Shown: piece by piece, positions 19,448 through 29,060 of the stretch
Layout: every line of letters starts with the position of its first letter
Position numbering within the stretch: position 1 is the stretch's first letter
Assembly: GCA_029210965.1 (NCBI GenBank)
Contig: JARGFZ010000021.1
Span: 1 to 46,361, forward strand
DNA from: a bacterium
GTDB taxonomy: Bacteria > BMS3Abin14
DNA length: 46,361 nucleotides
Direction of reading: 5' to 3'
Program-made: the position numbers and the translations under genes
The notes under the pieces: generated by a model
Databases searched by the model: none
What the model was told of the DNA's origin: nothing
What the model saw: only the letters and a program-made list of their open reading frames with translations

Positions 19448-20110
19448 TTATTTTTTACTTTTGGCTTTGATCTTCCCTGTCGTTTTAGCTTTTGGTTTTG
19501 CAGCAGCTTTTGACTTTGACTTAGCTGCTGTTTTCGATTTAGCTTTGGGTTTGGCGGTAGCTGTGGCTTTTGCTTCGGGTTTGGCTTTCGCTTTGCCCGT
19601 TCCCCGTTTCCGGTTCGCTGTGGCTGTTTTCTTCTGCGTGCTGCGTGCTGCGTCCTGCGTCCTGCCTTTACTCCAAAGATAGATCGCGTACTCGTAACCG
19701 TCCAGCAGCACCCGAAAGGATGCGAGGTTGACGTTGTCGTCAACGGAGGAAACCCTCCAGAAGGATTTGCCGTCCGAGAAAACCACACCCACCTCGATCT
19801 GGGAGGAGGTACCGATGTCACCTTCAATGAGGCGCACCTTGAAATCCAGAACGCGAACGGTTGTGATCTCGGGAAAGAGCTGTCCGAGGGATTTTTTCAG
19901 GACGTTGGCGAGGGCGTCTACGGGTCCAACACCCAGGTCGGCCTCATGCATCTCCTGATCCCCGGCCCGAAGGGTGACGGTTGCTTCGGGCCTGAACCCA
20001 TCGTCTATGAGCCGGTAGGTGCCGATGACATCGAAAGGTGGAGAGTACTCATCCAGGAACCTGAGCATCTTCAGTTCAGCGGTGGCATCGATAACGTTGA
20101 GGTCGGGCAT
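19448..20110 (-). CDS. Free-standing LeuA/CimA-type allosteric domain with Lys/Ala-rich tail
   Basis: 220 aa. Residues about 1-148 look like the C-terminal regulatory (LeuA_dimer) domain of isopropylmalate or citramalate synthase: PEATVTLRAGDQEMHEADLG, GPVDALANVLKKSL, VRVLDFKVRLIEGDIGTSSQ, ending VLLDGYEYAIYLWSKG. No catalytic TIM barrel precedes it. Residues 149-159 (GRTQDAARSTQ) are encoded by five heptamer units (19634-19668). Residues 160-220 are almost pure Lys/Ala with some Thr/Ser/Pro, like bacterial histone H1-type tails. Start ATG with GGAGG upstream. Could regulate a separate synthase or bind nucleic acid; both are inferences. Confidence 0.75.
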   Translation of the reverse strand: MPDLNVIDATAELKMLRFLDEYSPPFDVIGTYRLIDDGFRPEATVTLRAGDQEMHEADLGVGPVDALANVLKKSLGQLFPEITTVRVLDFKVRLIEGDIGTSSQIEVGVVFSDGKSFWRVSSVDDNVNLASFRVLLDGYEYAIYLWSKGRTQDAARSTQKKTATANRKRGTGKAKAKPEAKATATAKPKAKSKTAAKSKSKAAAKPKAKTTGKIKAKSKK

Positions 20111-20127
20111 AGAGAACCTCCGGTTCT

Positions 20128-20204
20128 AGGTACAAGGTACAAGGTACAAGGTACAAGGTACAAGGTACAAGGTACAAGGTACAAGGTACAAGGTACAAGG
20201 TACA
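20128..20204. repeat. Eleven perfect heptamers (AGGTACA) before the LeuA-domain gene
   Basis: Eleven uninterrupted AGGTACA units (77 bp) lie 17 bp upstream of the ATG at 20110, just beyond its Shine-Dalgarno. Any promoter must be across or beyond this array. Such perfect runs are prone to slippage. Confidence 0.95.
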
Positions 20205-20247
20205 AGGATGATTATACATTAGTCCTTAAGACTTTCCACTTTTTGTA

Positions 20248-20277
20248 AATAAAGCGGCCCGTATAAGCCGCTTTATT
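20248..20277 (-). terminator. Terminator hairpin of the homocysteine operon
   Basis: 11-bp perfect stem AATAAAGCGGC/GCCGCTTTATT with 8-nt loop, 100 bp after the ferredoxin gene. Minus-strand T content after the stem is modest (TTTAC), so it may be bidirectional. A short heptamer-like run (TCTTGTA, TCTTGTC) lies at 20342-20369. Confidence 0.65.
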
Positions 20278-20376: not shown

Positions 20377-20820
20377 TTACGATGCCTTGCGTTCCCCCTG
20401 AGTGCCGTTGAGCTTCATAACAGACAGCTCGATACAATGCACCGTGCACACCTTGACGCAGTTGCCGCAGGCGACGCACTTGTCATGATCGAGGATCACC
20501 TTCTTGTCCGCGCCGTCCACGAACAGGGCATCAGTGGGACACACCGCAGTACACGCGCCGCAGTGAACGCATCTGTCTTCGTCCTTCCGGATATTCTCCG
20601 TTACCTCTTCGATGATGACATTGGCAGATCTGAGAAAATCCAGCCCCTTGCTGAAATCTTCCTCCGAACCCTCCAGGCTCATGATGACGAAGGCATCCTG
20701 ACGAGGCAGAACTTTCGCTTCGAGAATATTGAACACCAGGTCGGAAACTTTCGACAGGCCGTGAATGATCGGCTTGTTCCAGGTTTTTTTCGTGAACTTC
20801 AGTATCAGTGTCTTTTCCAT
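20377..20820 (-). CDS. NIL-domain 2[4Fe-4S] ferredoxin
   Basis: 147 aa. N-terminal NIL ligand-binding-like domain (about 1-75), then two [4Fe-4S] motifs: CVHCGACTAVCP and CVACGNCVKVC. In methanogens and many anaerobes this protein pairs with HcyBio (DUF39) to make homocysteine from aspartate semialdehyde and a reduced sulfur source; the ferredoxin is thought to supply electrons. Third gene of the SAM-riboswitch operon here. Downstream of it comes a 100-bp spacer and a terminator hairpin. Confidence 0.9.
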   Translation of the reverse strand: MEKTLILKFTKKTWNKPIIHGLSKVSDLVFNILEAKVLPRQDAFVIMSLEGSEEDFSKGLDFLRSANVIIEEVTENIRKDEDRCVHCGACTAVCPTDALFVDGADKKVILDHDKCVACGNCVKVCTVHCIELSVMKLNGTQGERKAS

Positions 20821-21014
20821 GATTATCCCTCCGGGATAGTTTATGCGGCCGTCAATAGCACACCATCTGAGGCGTTATCAGGTCTCGGCAATCCTCGGAA
20901 TACCTGGGTACGTATGCCTCCGGTTACCTCAACCCTCTGGCCTTGCATCTGGCCCACTCTGAACGGCCTCGCTAATTATTTATTTTCGTCAATGCTAATT
21001 ATGCTTTCAAATGT

Positions 21015-21779
21015 TTACTTTGGACTTTGGGCTTTGGTCTTTGGACTCCCAAGTGGAACCAGTTCCACTTGGCCCTTGGCCCCTATCGTTTCACCCATGA
21101 TCACCACAGCTCCCGTAATACCGGTCACTGACAGAGCCCAGTCAAGAGCCTTCTCCATGTCTTCGGAGTGGCGGATCCTGTTTCCAAGCTCCGTGGCGAC
21201 GGCGTCGGCAAGGGCCCCGGAAGGAGAGATCACTGTTGCGGCATCCGCACGGCCCAGGCTCAGGGAAGGACCCACAGTACCGGAGGAGGTACAAACCGCG
21301 ATACCCTGGGATGGATCCACCGACAGGGCGACCCGGCCGCTCAAGGGCGACGGCCCGGCCCACAAGCCAACGGAACTGATGGAACCTCCCATCATGTAAA
21401 GATCACCGCCGTTCTCCACCATGACCCTGGTTGTGTGACCGATGAGATCCCTTGCAACCCCTTCGGCGATACTACCCGCAACGGCGGCCATGGGACCGAT
21501 CCCGACGGCGTTGGCAGCACTCACCATGCGGGCCACAATGGAACGGGTTGGCACCGGTTCCTTCCACATCTTGAGAGTGGTGGCAAATAACGGATGGGCC
21601 GCGATATAACCTTCTATGACGGCTCTGAGTGAGCTGATCGACTCCAAAACCTTGTCCGTCAGATCTCGATCCGCCGCTATCCAGAGATCGGTCTCGTCAA
21701 CCACCACCCTGAAGGAGGTTAAACCTTCAGGGGCGGCTTTTTCCCTGTAAGTACGCTCTGTATAAGCCGTTTGAGTCAT
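21015..21779 (-). CDS. UPF0280 (ApbE-like, COG2122) protein
   Basis: 254 aa. Family features: RTYREKAAPEGLTSFRVVVDETDL at the start, then SAANAVGIGPMAAVAGSIAE, MVENGGDLYM and GRADAATVISPSGALADAVAT. COG2122 proteins have been connected genetically with the anaerobic homocysteine and sulfide-assimilation system; the location between HcyBio and NIL-ferredoxin supports that role. The last ten or so residues (GSPKTKAQSPK) are encoded by a TTTGGAC-type heptamer array (21018-21045) ending at the stop. Just inside lies a near-perfect 24-bp palindrome (21049-21072). Confidence 0.9.
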   Translation of the reverse strand: MTQTAYTERTYREKAAPEGLTSFRVVVDETDLWIAADRDLTDKVLESISSLRAVIEGYIAAHPLFATTLKMWKEPVPTRSIVARMVSAANAVGIGPMAAVAGSIAEGVARDLIGHTTRVMVENGGDLYMMGGSISSVGLWAGPSPLSGRVALSVDPSQGIAVCTSSGTVGPSLSLGRADAATVISPSGALADAVATELGNRIRHSEDMEKALDWALSVTGITGAVVIMGETIGAKGQVELVPLGSPKTKAQSPK

Positions 21780-21782
21780 ATT

Positions 21783-22955
21783 TTACCTGGTGGTCGGACC
21801 CGGCAAGGTGCACTGCGGCACTCCGAGGACGAAACCTTCCTCCAGTATCCACCGTTTCAACTCCTCGGCCACTTCCAGCGCCATGGAGTAGCTGGACAGG
21901 GGGGTTGTGGGGATCTCTTTCCCATTAAAGCGCATGGTTCCGCTGCGAAGCTCCTCGTAGCTGACCTCGCCGAGGATCTTGCCGGTGCCTTCCGGGTAGT
22001 CCACCGCGTAATCCACAATGTTGGTCACGATATCCTTGTCCCTGACCCCCGTAAAGCGGGCCATCTCTTCATCCAGGATGGGGATAGGGATACCCATGCC
22101 AATGAAGAGACTGATGCCATAGCCGAGCATGCTGGCGCCCCGCAAGTACCGCTGCTTCATTCCCTTGAGGTCTCCGAGGACCGAGATCGTGCCTGCGGGA
22201 GTTCTCGTGGTGCCGTTGTCGGCTCTGGGGGCGTTGGGGTTATGCTGGGTCCCATGCCAGATGACGTGCCCCTCTCCCCCTCCCAGAAAGATCCTGGTCC
22301 CCAGACCGATAGTCCGGTAAAGGGGGTCGTTGAGCAGGGGCGAAAGCTGTCCGGCGCTGGAATAGTTCGCGTTGCTGGCATCCGGTCTCAGCACACCCAT
22401 GTAGGTGTAGACGGTTCGATCACCCTGATTCACCGCGCAGTTGTAGTTCTGGTAGGCGTTCCTGGGGTTTAATAAAATAGCGTAAGGCATCTCTGCGAGG
22501 GTCTTTTCCATCTCCGCCTTCTTGGCCGGATAGCAGTCTGTACCGTAGCCTTCCACCCTGAGGTTCACTGTTTTACCTGCTACCAGATCCTCGATGACGT
22601 GGGCGCCTCCATAGGGGAAGCTGCCCGGGTAGACCTTGTTTAAAGGATCGTCCTCCCTGGACTCTGTGGCACCGAGGTAGGTGTCCACGGCAGCCATCCC
22701 GGCGTAGGCCGGCACATCGTTCATCCACACCCTGGAAGATTTTATCTTGGGCGACGTGTGACCGAAATTGAACATTGCGCCGGAGGAGCACATCATCCCG
22801 AAGGTCCCGGTGGTTACTACATCCACCTCTTTTGCAGCCTTGGCCGGTCCCACTTCATCCACCAGGTAGGACATCTCGCCTGCAGTAAGTACAACCGCTT
22901 TACCGGACCTGATGCGTTCGTTGATCTCCTCGAAGCTCTTCGTTGTTTTAGCCAT
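21783..22955 (-). CDS. Homocysteine biosynthesis protein HcyBio (DUF39)
   Basis: 390 aa from the ATG at 22955 with AAGGAG upstream (MAKTTKSFEEINERIRSGKAV). Upstream frame to 23237 lies in the riboswitch and is not coding. The family converts aspartate semialdehyde plus sulfide-level sulfur to homocysteine in anaerobes, with persulfide chemistry on cysteines; Cys 56 (GTFGMMCSSGA) and Cys 141 (GTDCYPAKKAE) are candidates. No C-terminal CBS pair is present, so this is the short form. First gene of the operon behind a SAM-I riboswitch, which fits a methionine-pathway gene. Confidence 0.92.
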   Translation of the reverse strand: MAKTTKSFEEINERIRSGKAVVLTAGEMSYLVDEVGPAKAAKEVDVVTTGTFGMMCSSGAMFNFGHTSPKIKSSRVWMNDVPAYAGMAAVDTYLGATESREDDPLNKVYPGSFPYGGAHVIEDLVAGKTVNLRVEGYGTDCYPAKKAEMEKTLAEMPYAILLNPRNAYQNYNCAVNQGDRTVYTYMGVLRPDASNANYSSAGQLSPLLNDPLYRTIGLGTRIFLGGGEGHVIWHGTQHNPNAPRADNGTTRTPAGTISVLGDLKGMKQRYLRGASMLGYGISLFIGMGIPIPILDEEMARFTGVRDKDIVTNIVDYAVDYPEGTGKILGEVSYEELRSGTMRFNGKEIPTTPLSSYSMALEVAEELKRWILEEGFVLGVPQCTLPGPTTR

Positions 22956-23045
22956 CTTGTTACTCCTTCGTTTTGCGGTTATCTGCGAACAGTATACTGT
23001 GAGCTGTTCACTGTTCTTGCAGACTGGAAAGGCCCGCCAGAACTG

Positions 23046-23074
23046 AAAAACCCCACCTGTGACAACAGGAGGGG
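23046..23074 (-). terminator. Riboswitch expression-platform terminator
   Basis: Minus strand: stem CCCCTCCTG/CAGGTGGGG (one T-T mismatch) followed by five T, 20 bp after the SAM aptamer and about 90 bp before the HcyBio start. Expected to form when SAM is bound and stop transcription. Confidence 0.8.
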
Positions 23075-23093
23075 CAAAAGCTTTTACCCAACT

Positions 23094-23201
23094 CCTTATC
23101 TCCCAAGGTTCCTTGCGGGAATTAGCACCGGGTGCCACGCGTAAAGCGTGACCGGTTGCTGTGGCTTCAAAGGGCCCGTCCCTCCACCACTCTGGATAAG
23201 G
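23094..23201 (-). promoter_or_regulatory. SAM-I (S-box) riboswitch
   Basis: Minus strand shows the canonical S-box core in order: P1 strand CCTTATC (23201-23195), AGAGTGGTGGAGGGA, GGCCCTTTGAAGCCACAGCAACC, GGTGCTAATTCC, and the P1 partner GATAAGG (23100-23094). The conserved kink-turn and core bases agree with the family. Placed before HcyBio, it makes homocysteine synthesis respond to S-adenosylmethionine. Confidence 0.93.
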
Positions 23202-23298
23202 TGTATCTATGTGAGGGGGGAGAATCACACAACTCAACCAGACAAGTCAAGAATTTTTTATCCTTTCCCGAAGATTGTACTTAAATGGGTGAGAATCA

Positions 23299-23637: not shown

Positions 23638-23928
23638 ATGCCTTCAGATGACAAACCCATAGCCTCCTGTCCCCTCAACGATGTCGAGGCTTTCGATTTT
23701 CCCTTTTTCATTAAAAAGGGCGTGGGGGTTGAATCCGACCAGCTGCTGCTTGAGATCCACCTGTGGCACATGACCTCCGACGAAAAGGCGGTGATCGGGG
23801 AACTCCTCCAGATCAACGAAAGTAAGGACCTGCAGGACGCAGGGTATAAAACAGACGACCGGGGAGTGTACATCATCGGGGAAGCGGAGAGTTGGATGCC
23901 TGGACCGGAGTTTGGTCCCATAGAATAA
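23638..23928 (+). CDS. Small acidic protein of unknown function
   Basis: 96 aa, no signal peptide. I recognise no family. Contains CPLNDVEAFDFPFFIKKGVGVESD and LLEIHLWHMTSDEKAVIGELLQ; WMPGPEFGPIE at the end. Followed 60 bp later by the protoglobin gene and probably cotranscribed with it. AGGA precedes the ATG. Codon use and absence of repeats in it favour a true gene. Confidence 0.55.
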   Translation: MPSDDKPIASCPLNDVEAFDFPFFIKKGVGVESDQLLLEIHLWHMTSDEKAVIGELLQINESKDLQDAGYKTDDRGVYIIGEAESWMPGPEFGPIE

Positions 23929-23988
23929 GGAAGGAGGAATGTGGGGCAAAAACGCTGTCTTCATCCTTCTGACATATTGGAGAACCCC

Positions 23989-24879
23989 ATGCTTACTGCC
24001 AAAAAGATCAAGGCTCACTATGATTTCACCCTGGAGGAGGAGAAGCTCCTCGCTGATCTGAGCACGCGGATGAAGAACTACCGCGACCGGTTCGGTCAGG
24101 AGCTCATGGCCTCCTTCATGGTCCACGAAAGCATGGCTGGTTTCTTTCCTTCTGAAGAAAAGGAAAAACACCACGCCATGACCTTCGCTGGCTGGTTTAT
24201 GCGCCTCTTTTCAGGAACTTACGACGAATCCTATTTCCAGAAGCTGAGAAAAGTGGGGCAGGTGCACGTGGACATCAAGCTGGACGGGCATCTTGTTAAC
24301 GCTGCCATGACTACTACACGGCAGCTGTTGGCCGGATATATCGAGCGGGAGGTCCCGGCTGAGGATATGGAAAAGACCAGGATAGCCATCACCAAGATCC
24401 TGGACATCAATCTGGACGTCATGACCAGTTCCTACAGGCAGGCCGAACTGAAGAAGTATTTTATTTACAAAAAGGCGGAATCCTATCTCATAAGCCTCAT
24501 GGAGCGGTTCACCCACGGCCTGAACCTCGTCCTGGCCCTCGCCCTCGCTATAGTTTCCCTGGAGGTAATCTGGCTGTTCGCCCGCGACGTAACGAACGTC
24601 TTTCGCGGCGACAATCTGGAGACCAGCGTGGTCACCGCCCTGGGCTCCCTGCTCATCATCTGGATGATGAGCGAGTTGATGTCCACTGAGGTTGACCACC
24701 TTAAGGGCAAGAAGATCGCCATCAAGGTCTTTATCGGCACTGTCATCATCGCCCTCATTCGAAAAGTGCTCATCGGGTCGCTGCAGCATGCATCTCTCAC
24801 CGAATACGGGACCAAGGTCGGTACTCTTTTCATCCTGGCATTGGTTTACTGGCTGGTGGCCAGGGCCGACCGGCCGTGA
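23989..24879 (+). CDS. Protoglobin domain fused to a PsiE-like membrane domain
   Basis: 296 aa from the ATG at 23989 (GGAG 23979-23982). Residues about 1-165 resemble protoglobin/globin-coupled sensor heme domains, with the likely proximal His 93 in VGQVHVDIKLDG. Residues about 165-292 contain four hydrophobic helices like PsiE (phosphate-starvation inducible) proteins, with EVIWLFARDV and IIWMMSELMSTEV. So a heme gas sensor or O2/NO binder tethered to the membrane is likely, without kinase or cyclase output. Overlaps mobA by four bases (GTGA). An alternative GTG start at 23941 adds 16 residues with too-close SD. Confidence 0.75.
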   Translation: MLTAKKIKAHYDFTLEEEKLLADLSTRMKNYRDRFGQELMASFMVHESMAGFFPSEEKEKHHAMTFAGWFMRLFSGTYDESYFQKLRKVGQVHVDIKLDGHLVNAAMTTTRQLLAGYIEREVPAEDMEKTRIAITKILDINLDVMTSSYRQAELKKYFIYKKAESYLISLMERFTHGLNLVLALALAIVSLEVIWLFARDVTNVFRGDNLETSVVTALGSLLIIWMMSELMSTEVDHLKGKKIAIKVFIGTVIIALIRKVLIGSLQHASLTEYGTKVGTLFILALVYWLVARADRP

Positions 24880-25703: not shown

Positions 25704-26630
25704 ATGGGTCGTATTTACGACAGCATAACGGAACTTATCGGGAATACTCCTCTTCTCAGGTTAACCAAAGTAGCTGATGGAGCAAAAGGCATCGTCCTTG
25801 GAAAAATGGAATCCCTCAACCCCCTTTCCAGCGTCAAGGACCGTATCGGTTTAGCCATGATCGAGGCAGCTGAAAAAGAGGGATTAATAAAGAGTAACAC
25901 TGTCATCGTGGAACCCACATCAGGCAATACAGGTGTAGCTCTTGCCTTTGTAGCCGCATGCAAGGGGTACCGGCTCATCCTCACCATGCCCGAGACCATG
26001 AGTGTTGAAAGGAGAAACCTTCTCGCCGCCCTCGGCGCGGAGCTGGTCCTCACCCCCGGCAGCGAGGGGATGAAAGGCGCCATCGAGCGGGCCCAGGAGA
26101 TCGTTGACACCACACCGGGCGCCATCATACCTCAGCAGTTCGAAAACCCGGCCAATCCGGATATTCATCGCCGGACCACCGCCGAGGAGATCTGGGAGGA
26201 CACCGGAGGAGAGGTGGACATTCTTGTCGCTGGCGTAGGAACGGGGGGAAGCATCACCGGTATTGGTGAGGTGCTCAAGGAACGGCGGCCGGGGTTTACG
26301 GTCATTGCTGTTGAGCCCGAGGACAGTCCCGTCCTGTCCGGTGGAACGCCTGGACCACACAAGATTCAGGGCATCGGGGCCGGTTTCGTCCCAAAGGTGC
26401 TCAACACCAAGATCATCGATGAGATCGTCACTGTCAAAGCTGAGGATGCCTTTGAGACATCACGCAGACTGGCAAAAGAGGAAGGTATTCTCTGCGGGAT
26501 CTCCGCCGGCGCCAACGTATGGGCCGCCGTCCAGGTAGCCAAACGCCCGGAGAACAGCGGGAAAACCATTGTCACCATCATTTGCGACACAGGGGAAAGG
26601 TATCTTTCCACACCACTTTTCCAGGGGTGA
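25704..26630 (+). CDS. cysK: Cysteine synthase A (O-acetylserine sulfhydrylase)
   Basis: 308 aa, PLP enzyme making cysteine from O-acetylserine and sulfide. PLP lysine in [15 protein letters not shown] (about residue 43), phosphate/substrate loop [11 protein letters not shown], cofactor loop [11 protein letters not shown]-terminal CGISAGAN. Start ATG with GGAGG upstream (25691-25695). Adjacent to a redox selenoprotein and 2.7 kb from the homocysteine operon, forming a sulfur cluster. Confidence 0.95.
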
Positions 26631-26762: not shown

Positions 26763-27533
26763 ATGAGATCTGAGTTAATCATCGCCGCGATCACCGCGCT
26801 TACCTTTCTCTCCTGCCAGCCTTCCAAAGAGGCCGCCAAGCCTCCTGTTCGGCTGGGTCCAGATGTAGAGCGTCTTGCAGGAGAGATCCTCGCTCCCATG
26901 GCAAACCCTGTCACCCTTCAGATCATCCGCGGCGGCAAAGGTGAAACCATGGGTGAAGAGGCTCAGGCTCTCGTGGACCTCGTAGCCCGGATATCACCAA
27001 ATGTGAGCATGAACAGGTTGGATATCGCCATACGTCCCGATGGGGTCGACCTGGGGGTCTCCCACGGACCCGTTATCGAGATGAAAGGAAAAGCGCCAGG
27101 GATTTTAAGATACTACGGCTATCCCGAGCGCAAGGAGACGCGTCCCTTCCTCGAAGGCATCCTTTCGGCATCTGGCCACCAGGTAAATCTGGCGCCTGAA
27201 GCTGTATCCTATATTTCAAAACTGGACAAGGAGATTCTGATCCGCATTTTTACCACCCCGGACTGAACTTTCTGTCCCGAGCCGGTCGGGCTCGGATACG
27301 CTTTCGCAGGTCTCAGCGACAAACTGACAGTCCTGGTCTACGGCAGTCATGAATACCCGGAGCTGAGCCAGAAATTCGAGGTTGTCACCGTCCCCAAGAT
27401 CTGGGTCAACGACAAGATCTATATCGATGGAGCAGCCCCCACCAGGACTATGATGACAACAACATTTGTGAGGATGATAGAACAGGCGTTGGACGAATCA
27501 ATCCCGCGGGGTAAACTTCAGTTGGAAAAGTAA
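26763..27533 (+). CDS. Probable selenoprotein: two-Trx-fold (AhpF-N/PDO-like) protein with in-frame UGA
   Basis: Read through the TGA at 27264-27266, the frame gives 256 residues with selenocysteine at position 168. Residues about 25-150 are an inactive first thioredoxin-like fold (GPDVERLAGEILAPMANPVTLQI...PFLEGIL). The second fold starts LIRIFTTPD, then U-T-F-C-P: a UxxC redox motif in the place of CxxC, followed by the cis-Pro strand VVTVPKIWVNDK and a helical end. The layout matches protein disulfide oxidoreductases and the AhpF N-terminal domain, in which Sec forms are known. The N-terminus is hydrophobic with FLSC at 15-18, so it may be a lipoprotein; the weak ribosome site leaves the start unsure. 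Read as two genes it would lose its active site. Confidence 0.82.
27264..27295 (+). promoter_or_regulatory. UGA codon with putative bacterial SECIS hairpin
   Basis: Seventeen nt after the UGA begins a 5-nt loop GGTCG closed by a perfect 7-bp stem CCGAGCC/GGCTCGG (27277-27283 with 27289-27295). SelB recognises a GGU-type apical loop at this distance in known bacterial SECIS elements. Confidence 0.75.
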
Positions 27534-28530: not shown

Positions 28531-29060
28531 GAACTACCACAGGCTTACGCCCGTGGCATCCTTAAAGGCCAAGCTTCGCTTGCCCGCTGTCTTCTTCACC
28601 TTGCATGCGAACATAGTTTCGAATCGTAGCTTCGTTTATGTCGACTGTGGATACAAAATAGCCAATCGACCAAATACCTGGGACTCCCCAATATACTTTG
28701 TCCAAATGGGGAAACTTCTCCCGCAACTTTCGCCCGGTGTTGGATTTGATCATGTTCACCACCTGACATACTGGATACTTCGGTGGAATCGAAACAAACA
28801 TATGTATATGATCAATGTCCGTGTTTACTTCCAATATCTCAATCTCTGGATGGACACGGCTAACCTGAAGCACCACCTTGCGAAGATACTCTCCAACACC
28901 GGACTTCAGTATCTTCCTGCGGTATTTGGTCGATATGACTATGTGGTAACCCGTGTAGTAGACTGCATGCGCTTGTTTGCGATACTCCATCCACGTATTC
29001 TAACCGAAGACAGCGGGCACTTCCATCTACGGGCTTACGCCCGCAGAATTACGAATGAGT
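28531..29060 (-). mobile_element. IS200/IS605-type insertion sequence
   Basis: One HUH transposase gene with subterminal hairpins at both sides: CCACaGGC-TTAC-GCCcGTGG at 28537-28556 and CGGGC-TTAC-GCCCG at 29030-29043. IS200-family elements have such hairpins rather than terminal inverted repeats, and no target duplication. Outer limits are approximate. Confidence 0.75.
28562..28990 (-). CDS. tnpA: IS200/IS605 TnpA, Y1 HUH transposase
   Basis: 142 aa. Metal motif HIHM (HUH) in NTDIDHIHMFVSIPP near residue 61 and the nucleophile Tyr in ATIRNYVRMQG near residue 127; start KQAHAVYYTGYHIVISTKYRRKIL is typical. Full length, apparently intact. No TnpB accessory gene beside it. Confidence 0.93.
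   Translation of the reverse strand: MEYRKQAHAVYYTGYHIVISTKYRRKILKSGVGEYLRKVVLQVSRVHPEIEILEVNTDIDHIHMFVSIPPKYPVCQVVNMIKSNTGRKLREKFPHLDKVYWGVPGIWSIGYFVSTVDINEATIRNYVRMQGEEDSGQAKLGL

Follow-up and report, generated by a model that had tools for sequence, protein, structure and literature searches.

We found that a gene on the forward strand of the window (the whole stretch of 46,361 nucleotides analysed here) almost certainly encodes, as judged from its sequence, one intact selenium-containing redox protein despite an apparent stop codon. The product is very probably a single 256-residue Sec protein, lipid-anchored at Cys18 and composed of PDO/AhpF-N folds, which would serve as an envelope thiol-disulfide reductase via U168-T-F-C171. 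The gene (26763..27533), predicted to code for a Sec-containing lipoprotein whose PDO fold is supported by phmmer and Foldseek matches, starts with an ATG at 26763, runs through 167 codons to an in-frame TGA at 27264-27266 and continues for 88 codons to a TAA at 27531-27533. A previous sequence-only reading had noticed this continuation and rightly expected that a gene caller would truncate the protein to 167 aa, which is where the ordinary ORF list ends it; what that reading described as a gene apparently split into two ORFs is instead a single frame in which one codon is recoded. The UGA, read as selenocysteine, corresponds to residue 168 and is the first position of the motif U-T-F-C-P (residues 168-172). 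The forward-strand segment after it (27267..27533, stop codon included) codes for the remainder of the second thioredoxin fold and contains VVTVPKIWVND, with a cis-Pro typical of thioredoxin folds. A phmmer alignment to Pyrococcus PDO places U168 opposite the Cys that opens the second CPYC of that protein.

Orthologs were collected from the 12 genomes of the phylum, all of which belong to one family; 7 of them, including that of the window, carry the gene, with one match each. The six orthologs besides the window copy show 34-71% identity. All seven sequences have TGA in the identical column, and no Cys form at the Sec site was found in the phylum's clade (12 genomes). The second Cys and the Pro after the TGA are invariant (U-x-[FY]-C-P), so that the proposed placement of the TGA at the first Cys of a CxxC motif, with the second Cys kept, agrees with both the ortholog and the PDO alignments. 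UPYC or UPHC occurs at the equivalent site in other lineages and, as had been anticipated for residue 168, homologs have either Sec or Cys there, with the exception of one divergent match. Thus, the in-frame UGA is aligned with UGA or Cys and is flanked on both sides by conserved sequence, as expected of a bacterial selenoprotein. Between the window copy and its ortholog in G002, the region after the TGA has dN of 0.145 and dS of 1.49 (dN/dS ~0.1, with dS near saturation), and every comparison with the window copy gives a lower dN past the TGA than ahead of it, dS again being near saturation. Purifying selection is acting, on this sequence evidence, downstream of the TGA. We considered whether a nonsense mutation had split a PDO-like gene in two, leaving a pseudogene. 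Ordinary ORF calling does yield a 167-aa ORF up to the TGA, and a clean loss of the gene is seen in one relative; however, the TGA is shared by seven species at 34-71% identity, dN/dS is ~0.1 beyond it, and the second Cys and the Pro are invariant. This conservation already refutes the pseudogene, to which we give practically no chance. In addition, UGA is an ordinary stop elsewhere in the genome, e.g., in the neighboring cysK, and therefore a reassigned code does not explain the in-frame UGA.

The genome has the machinery needed for Sec insertion. SelA scored above the cut-off on contig C14, a SelB wing domain was found ~2.2 kb from it on the same contig and strand, and a tRNA-Sec with anticodon UCA was also detected. 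SelD (L038, G000:C53:5352-6281) has an in-frame TGA in the motif GUAAK and is itself probably a selenoprotein. Hence, the lack of selA, selB, selC and selD that would have spoken against recoding was not observed: all four are present and, together with the TGA column in 7/7 orthologs and the constraint after the TGA, they bear out the selenoprotein assignment. Each of the phylum's seven well-completed genomes has SelA; no SelA match was found in G002 though it carries the Sec gene, and this assembly is 81% complete.

A SECIS-like stem-loop is located at 27277..27295 of the forward strand, where positions 27278-27283 pair with 27289-27294 around the loop GGUCG (27284-27288). The window copy has one additional pair, giving a 7-bp stem formed by nt 14-20 with nt 26-32, counted from the TGA. 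The proposed 7-bp stem with a GGUCG loop is thus present in the window copy, and what the orthologs keep is 6 of the 7 bp; across the seven sequences 100% of cells are paired at these positions, and the loop follows GGUYS with GGU at nt 21-23. A bacterial-SECIS distance had been suggested; in the E. coli fdhF element (letters checked against genomes) GGU is found at nt 22, one nucleotide further than here (nt 21). Third positions of the eight stem-loop codons (+3 to +10) were 82% identical vs 45% elsewhere, measured as pairwise agreement among the seven orthologs in shared codon boxes, and TGT, CCC and CTC in this stretch are used by all seven. By itself, the stem is weak evidence, because the single-sequence fold of the window copy has a z-score of -0.66 and 14 of the window's 1700 TGAs (about 0.8%) satisfy a loose stem-plus-GGT rule. 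Similarly, the single compensatory change in the stem (C-G to U-A) is no proof of structure alone, as shuffles reach it in 285 of 500 cases, and no SECIS family reached its gathering score when the window was scanned with Rfam. The element has the features of a SECIS-like stem-loop of bacterial selenoproteins, with a covariation signal that is weak by itself; the case for it, made at the level of sequence, is that position, silent-site constraint and machinery all agree. On the basis of the conserved sequence and the machinery, SelB-bound Sec-tRNA would decode the UGA at 27264 aided by this downstream stem-loop.

Several lines of evidence place the protein in the PDO/AhpF-N superfamily, in line with the family first proposed for it. 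phmmer matched PDO 1j08 (E=1.2e-18) and 1a8l (E=6e-17), and the family model TIGR02187 (PDO_seleno_TRX) gave E=1.2e-33 with 116.2 bits vs a curated cut-off of 185; by sequence, the protein is related to TIGR02187 but outside the equivalog. An AlphaFold model (five sequences) had a mean pLDDT of 84.9, with residues 1-24 as the only long low-confidence stretch. In Foldseek searches, it matched PDO 2ayt (E=3.8e-16, TM 0.74/0.82), also 1j08, and then AhpF N-terminal domains (E=2.9e-13). Both the sequence and the predicted model point to two tandem thioredoxin folds in the PDO/AhpF-N arrangement. In the first fold, the strand and loop at the place of the PDO CxxC (26910..26982, forward strand) read RGGKGETMGEE; no Cys occurs at this site in any of the seven orthologs, which have RGG, RGS or RRS motifs instead, and the suggestion of an inactive first fold holds in all of them. 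The first-fold CxxC is present in many other bacterial family members. With a CxxC absent from the first fold, the protein differs from archaeal-type PDOs, which have this motif in both folds.

The N-terminus consists of a short start, a hydrophobic stretch, the invariant Cys18 and a polar linker. By sequence inspection, it is a predicted lipoprotein signal peptide (26763..26816, forward strand) with residue 18 as the lipobox Cys following TFLS, and this Cys is invariant in the seven sequences. Lipobox variants among orthologs include LTAC, LAGC, LAAC, LSC and similar; the F-L-S-C of the window copy is a weaker match than the lipoboxes of several orthologs. The retention of the lipobox in all seven suggests an envelope lipoprotein, and the lipid anchor that had been raised as a possibility gains support from the invariant C18. 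The N-terminus would drive export and lipid attachment at Cys18, positioning the protein on the outer side of the membrane. The same reading had regarded this as an unusual place for a Sec protein; it is indeed uncommon, but not unheard of. The NiFeSe hydrogenase of Desulfovibrio vulgaris is described as a lipoprotein. Most family members, including ten with Sec, have no export signal, and the protein could accordingly be a plain cytosolic Sec-PDO with a hydrophobic N-terminus that does not direct export. We consider this very unlikely, since C18 is invariant amid diverged N-termini, preceded by a hydrophobic stretch and followed by a polar linker, and since three orthologs have the canonical LTAC, LAGC and LAAC.

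The relationship between export and Sec was examined in a wider comparison of 91 rows from PDO-like matches in 386 genomes. Sec was found at the equivalent site in 20 rows: the 7 described here, 10 cytosolic proteins and 3 exported proteins from other families. All 10 predicted exported rows had Sec and none of the 71 non-Sec rows had an export signal, with signals scored using a start near the conserved M-x-L-L and with by-eye evaluation of the few automatic hydrophobicity or lipobox flags that lie ahead of it. The association had a Fisher p=0.003 outside the phylum in a test that ignores relatedness. The exported Sec-PDOs of three other bacterial families, L117 (G296; lipobox VAAC), L118 (G116; lipobox LVAC) and L125 (G158; signal peptide), are similar to the proteins of this phylum in having a signal peptide or lipobox and UxxC, but differ in that they retain the Cys pair of the first fold. 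The phylum's sequences formed a monophyletic group (SH-aLRT 100) subtended by a long branch. A free quick tree placed exported Sec-PDOs in separate places; a single clade of them was not rejected, and was slightly preferred, in the AU test (p 0.749). The association may reflect one event, since relatedness plays no part in the Fisher test and a single exported clade is compatible with the AU test. We tentatively suggest that exported, often lipid-anchored Sec-PDOs may form a separate subfamily in bacteria, one that couples export to Sec and functions as an extracytoplasmic reductase without classical DsbD.

With regard to function, the loss of CxxC from the first fold implies that this fold is only structural or substrate-binding, and the chemistry would be performed by the second fold with U168-T-F-C171. 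In the proposed reductase reaction, the selenolate of U168 would attack a disulfide, C171 would resolve the intermediate, and a reductant would reset the U168/C171 pair. Neither DsbD_TM nor VKOR was found in the protein's own genome, and DsbD_2 was present in only 3 of the 7 carriers. The DsbD_2 of the own genome is located in an ars-type cluster (L181, G000:C5:106500-115000), whose other genes, by eye, are ArsR-like, a permease, an exported CPSC thioredoxin-like protein, ACR3-like and ArsC-like. The missing DsbD_TM reductant, together with a two-fold PDO architecture that resembles isomerases, could fit a disulfide isomerase or oxidase of the envelope instead of a reductase. This is unlikely, given that each chain has a single redox site, that no VKOR for reoxidation was found in the genome, and that, as in Sec thioredoxins, a selenolate at the attacking position favors reduction. 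By analogy with the AhpF N-terminal domain, which feeds AhpC, the protein might also be the reductant of an envelope peroxiredoxin; the AhpF-N logic of a dead first fold and an active second fold and the Foldseek match to this domain (E=2.9e-13) are consistent with such a role, which we regard as doubtful because no peroxiredoxin occurs among the annotated conserved neighbors. The thiol-disulfide reductase reading is preferred over both.

The gene order mobA, cysK, Sec gene, (pfkB), rlpA-like gene and cyclophilin is kept across genera. The upstream neighbor, cysteine synthase (CysK/PALP; 25704..26630, forward strand; PF00291, E=6e-75), adjoins the Sec gene in the window, G002, G003, G006 and G010. 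The two genes are separated by 132 bp in the window, overlap by 4 bp in G003 and are 40 bp apart in G010, the latter two arrangements suggesting co-transcription in these genomes. At the level of gene context, the adjacent cysK may point to a role in handling cyst(e)ine or sulfide. In G005, a complete genome of the same genus as G010 with SelA present, the Sec gene is cleanly absent and the rlpA-like gene lies ~25 bp after cysK on the opposite strand; the gene is thus dispensable. Additional features were observed in the window. An ORF resembling an IS200-type transposase by eye (28562-28990, reverse strand) lies between pfkB and the rlpA-like gene. A protoglobin domain fused to a PsiE membrane domain (23941-24879) adjoins a conserved 96-aa protein without a Pfam match (23638-23928), and this pair is kept across the phylum. 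A homocysteine-biosynthesis cluster on the reverse strand (20377-23237), composed of an HcyBio protein, a 254-aa protein without a Pfam match and a NIL/4Fe-4S ferredoxin, has a SAM riboswitch (23093-23202, E=3.3e-18) ahead of it, and a short tandem repeat lies within 19946-20248 (forward strand), with GTRYKVQ repeats in the ORF there.

Selenoproteins of the PDO family with UxxC are a kind already known. The lipobox in 7/7 orthologs, the loss of the first-fold CxxC in 7/7 and the association of export with Sec look new: nothing was found on lipoprotein-type selenoproteins of the PDO family in the literature searched, and the words periplasm, signal peptide and secreted were absent from a 2026 review in a word search. 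Ordinary ORF calling cuts the protein exactly before its catalytic center and the NCBI family model scores it below the cut-off; therefore, such envelope selenoproteins probably appear in annotations as short hypothetical lipoproteins. Should export and Sec be truly linked in this family, this would point to an unrecognized extracytoplasmic redox system based on selenium, in bacteria in which no DsbD_TM was found.

UxxC members of TIGR02187 have been included among high-confidence predicted selenoproteins (PMC13188914; also PMC9312934). Like the protein described here, they belong to the PDO family with two thioredoxin folds and have Sec as the first residue of the second-fold UxxC; unlike them, our protein has a lipoprotein signal, has lost the first-fold CxxC and scores 116, below the cut-off of 185. 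With archaeal and Aquifex PDOs (1a8l, 1j08, 2ayt) it has in common the whole-chain fold, the position of the second CxxC and the cis-Pro, whereas those proteins have Cys instead of Sec and no lipoprotein N-terminus, and the aligned Pyrococcus PDOs have the first-fold Cys pair. A TIGR02187 homolog of the AhpF N-terminal domain (Grx-like) with UxxC, ABB15282.1, is listed in PMC9312934 and PMC13188914, the latter citing Kryukov and Gladyshev 2004. The AhpF N-terminal domain (5h29, 6il7, 1zyn) likewise has an inactive first fold and an active second fold; however, it is part of a larger cytosolic flavoenzyme and uses Cys, whereas the protein in the window is free-standing, contains Sec and is predicted to be exported.
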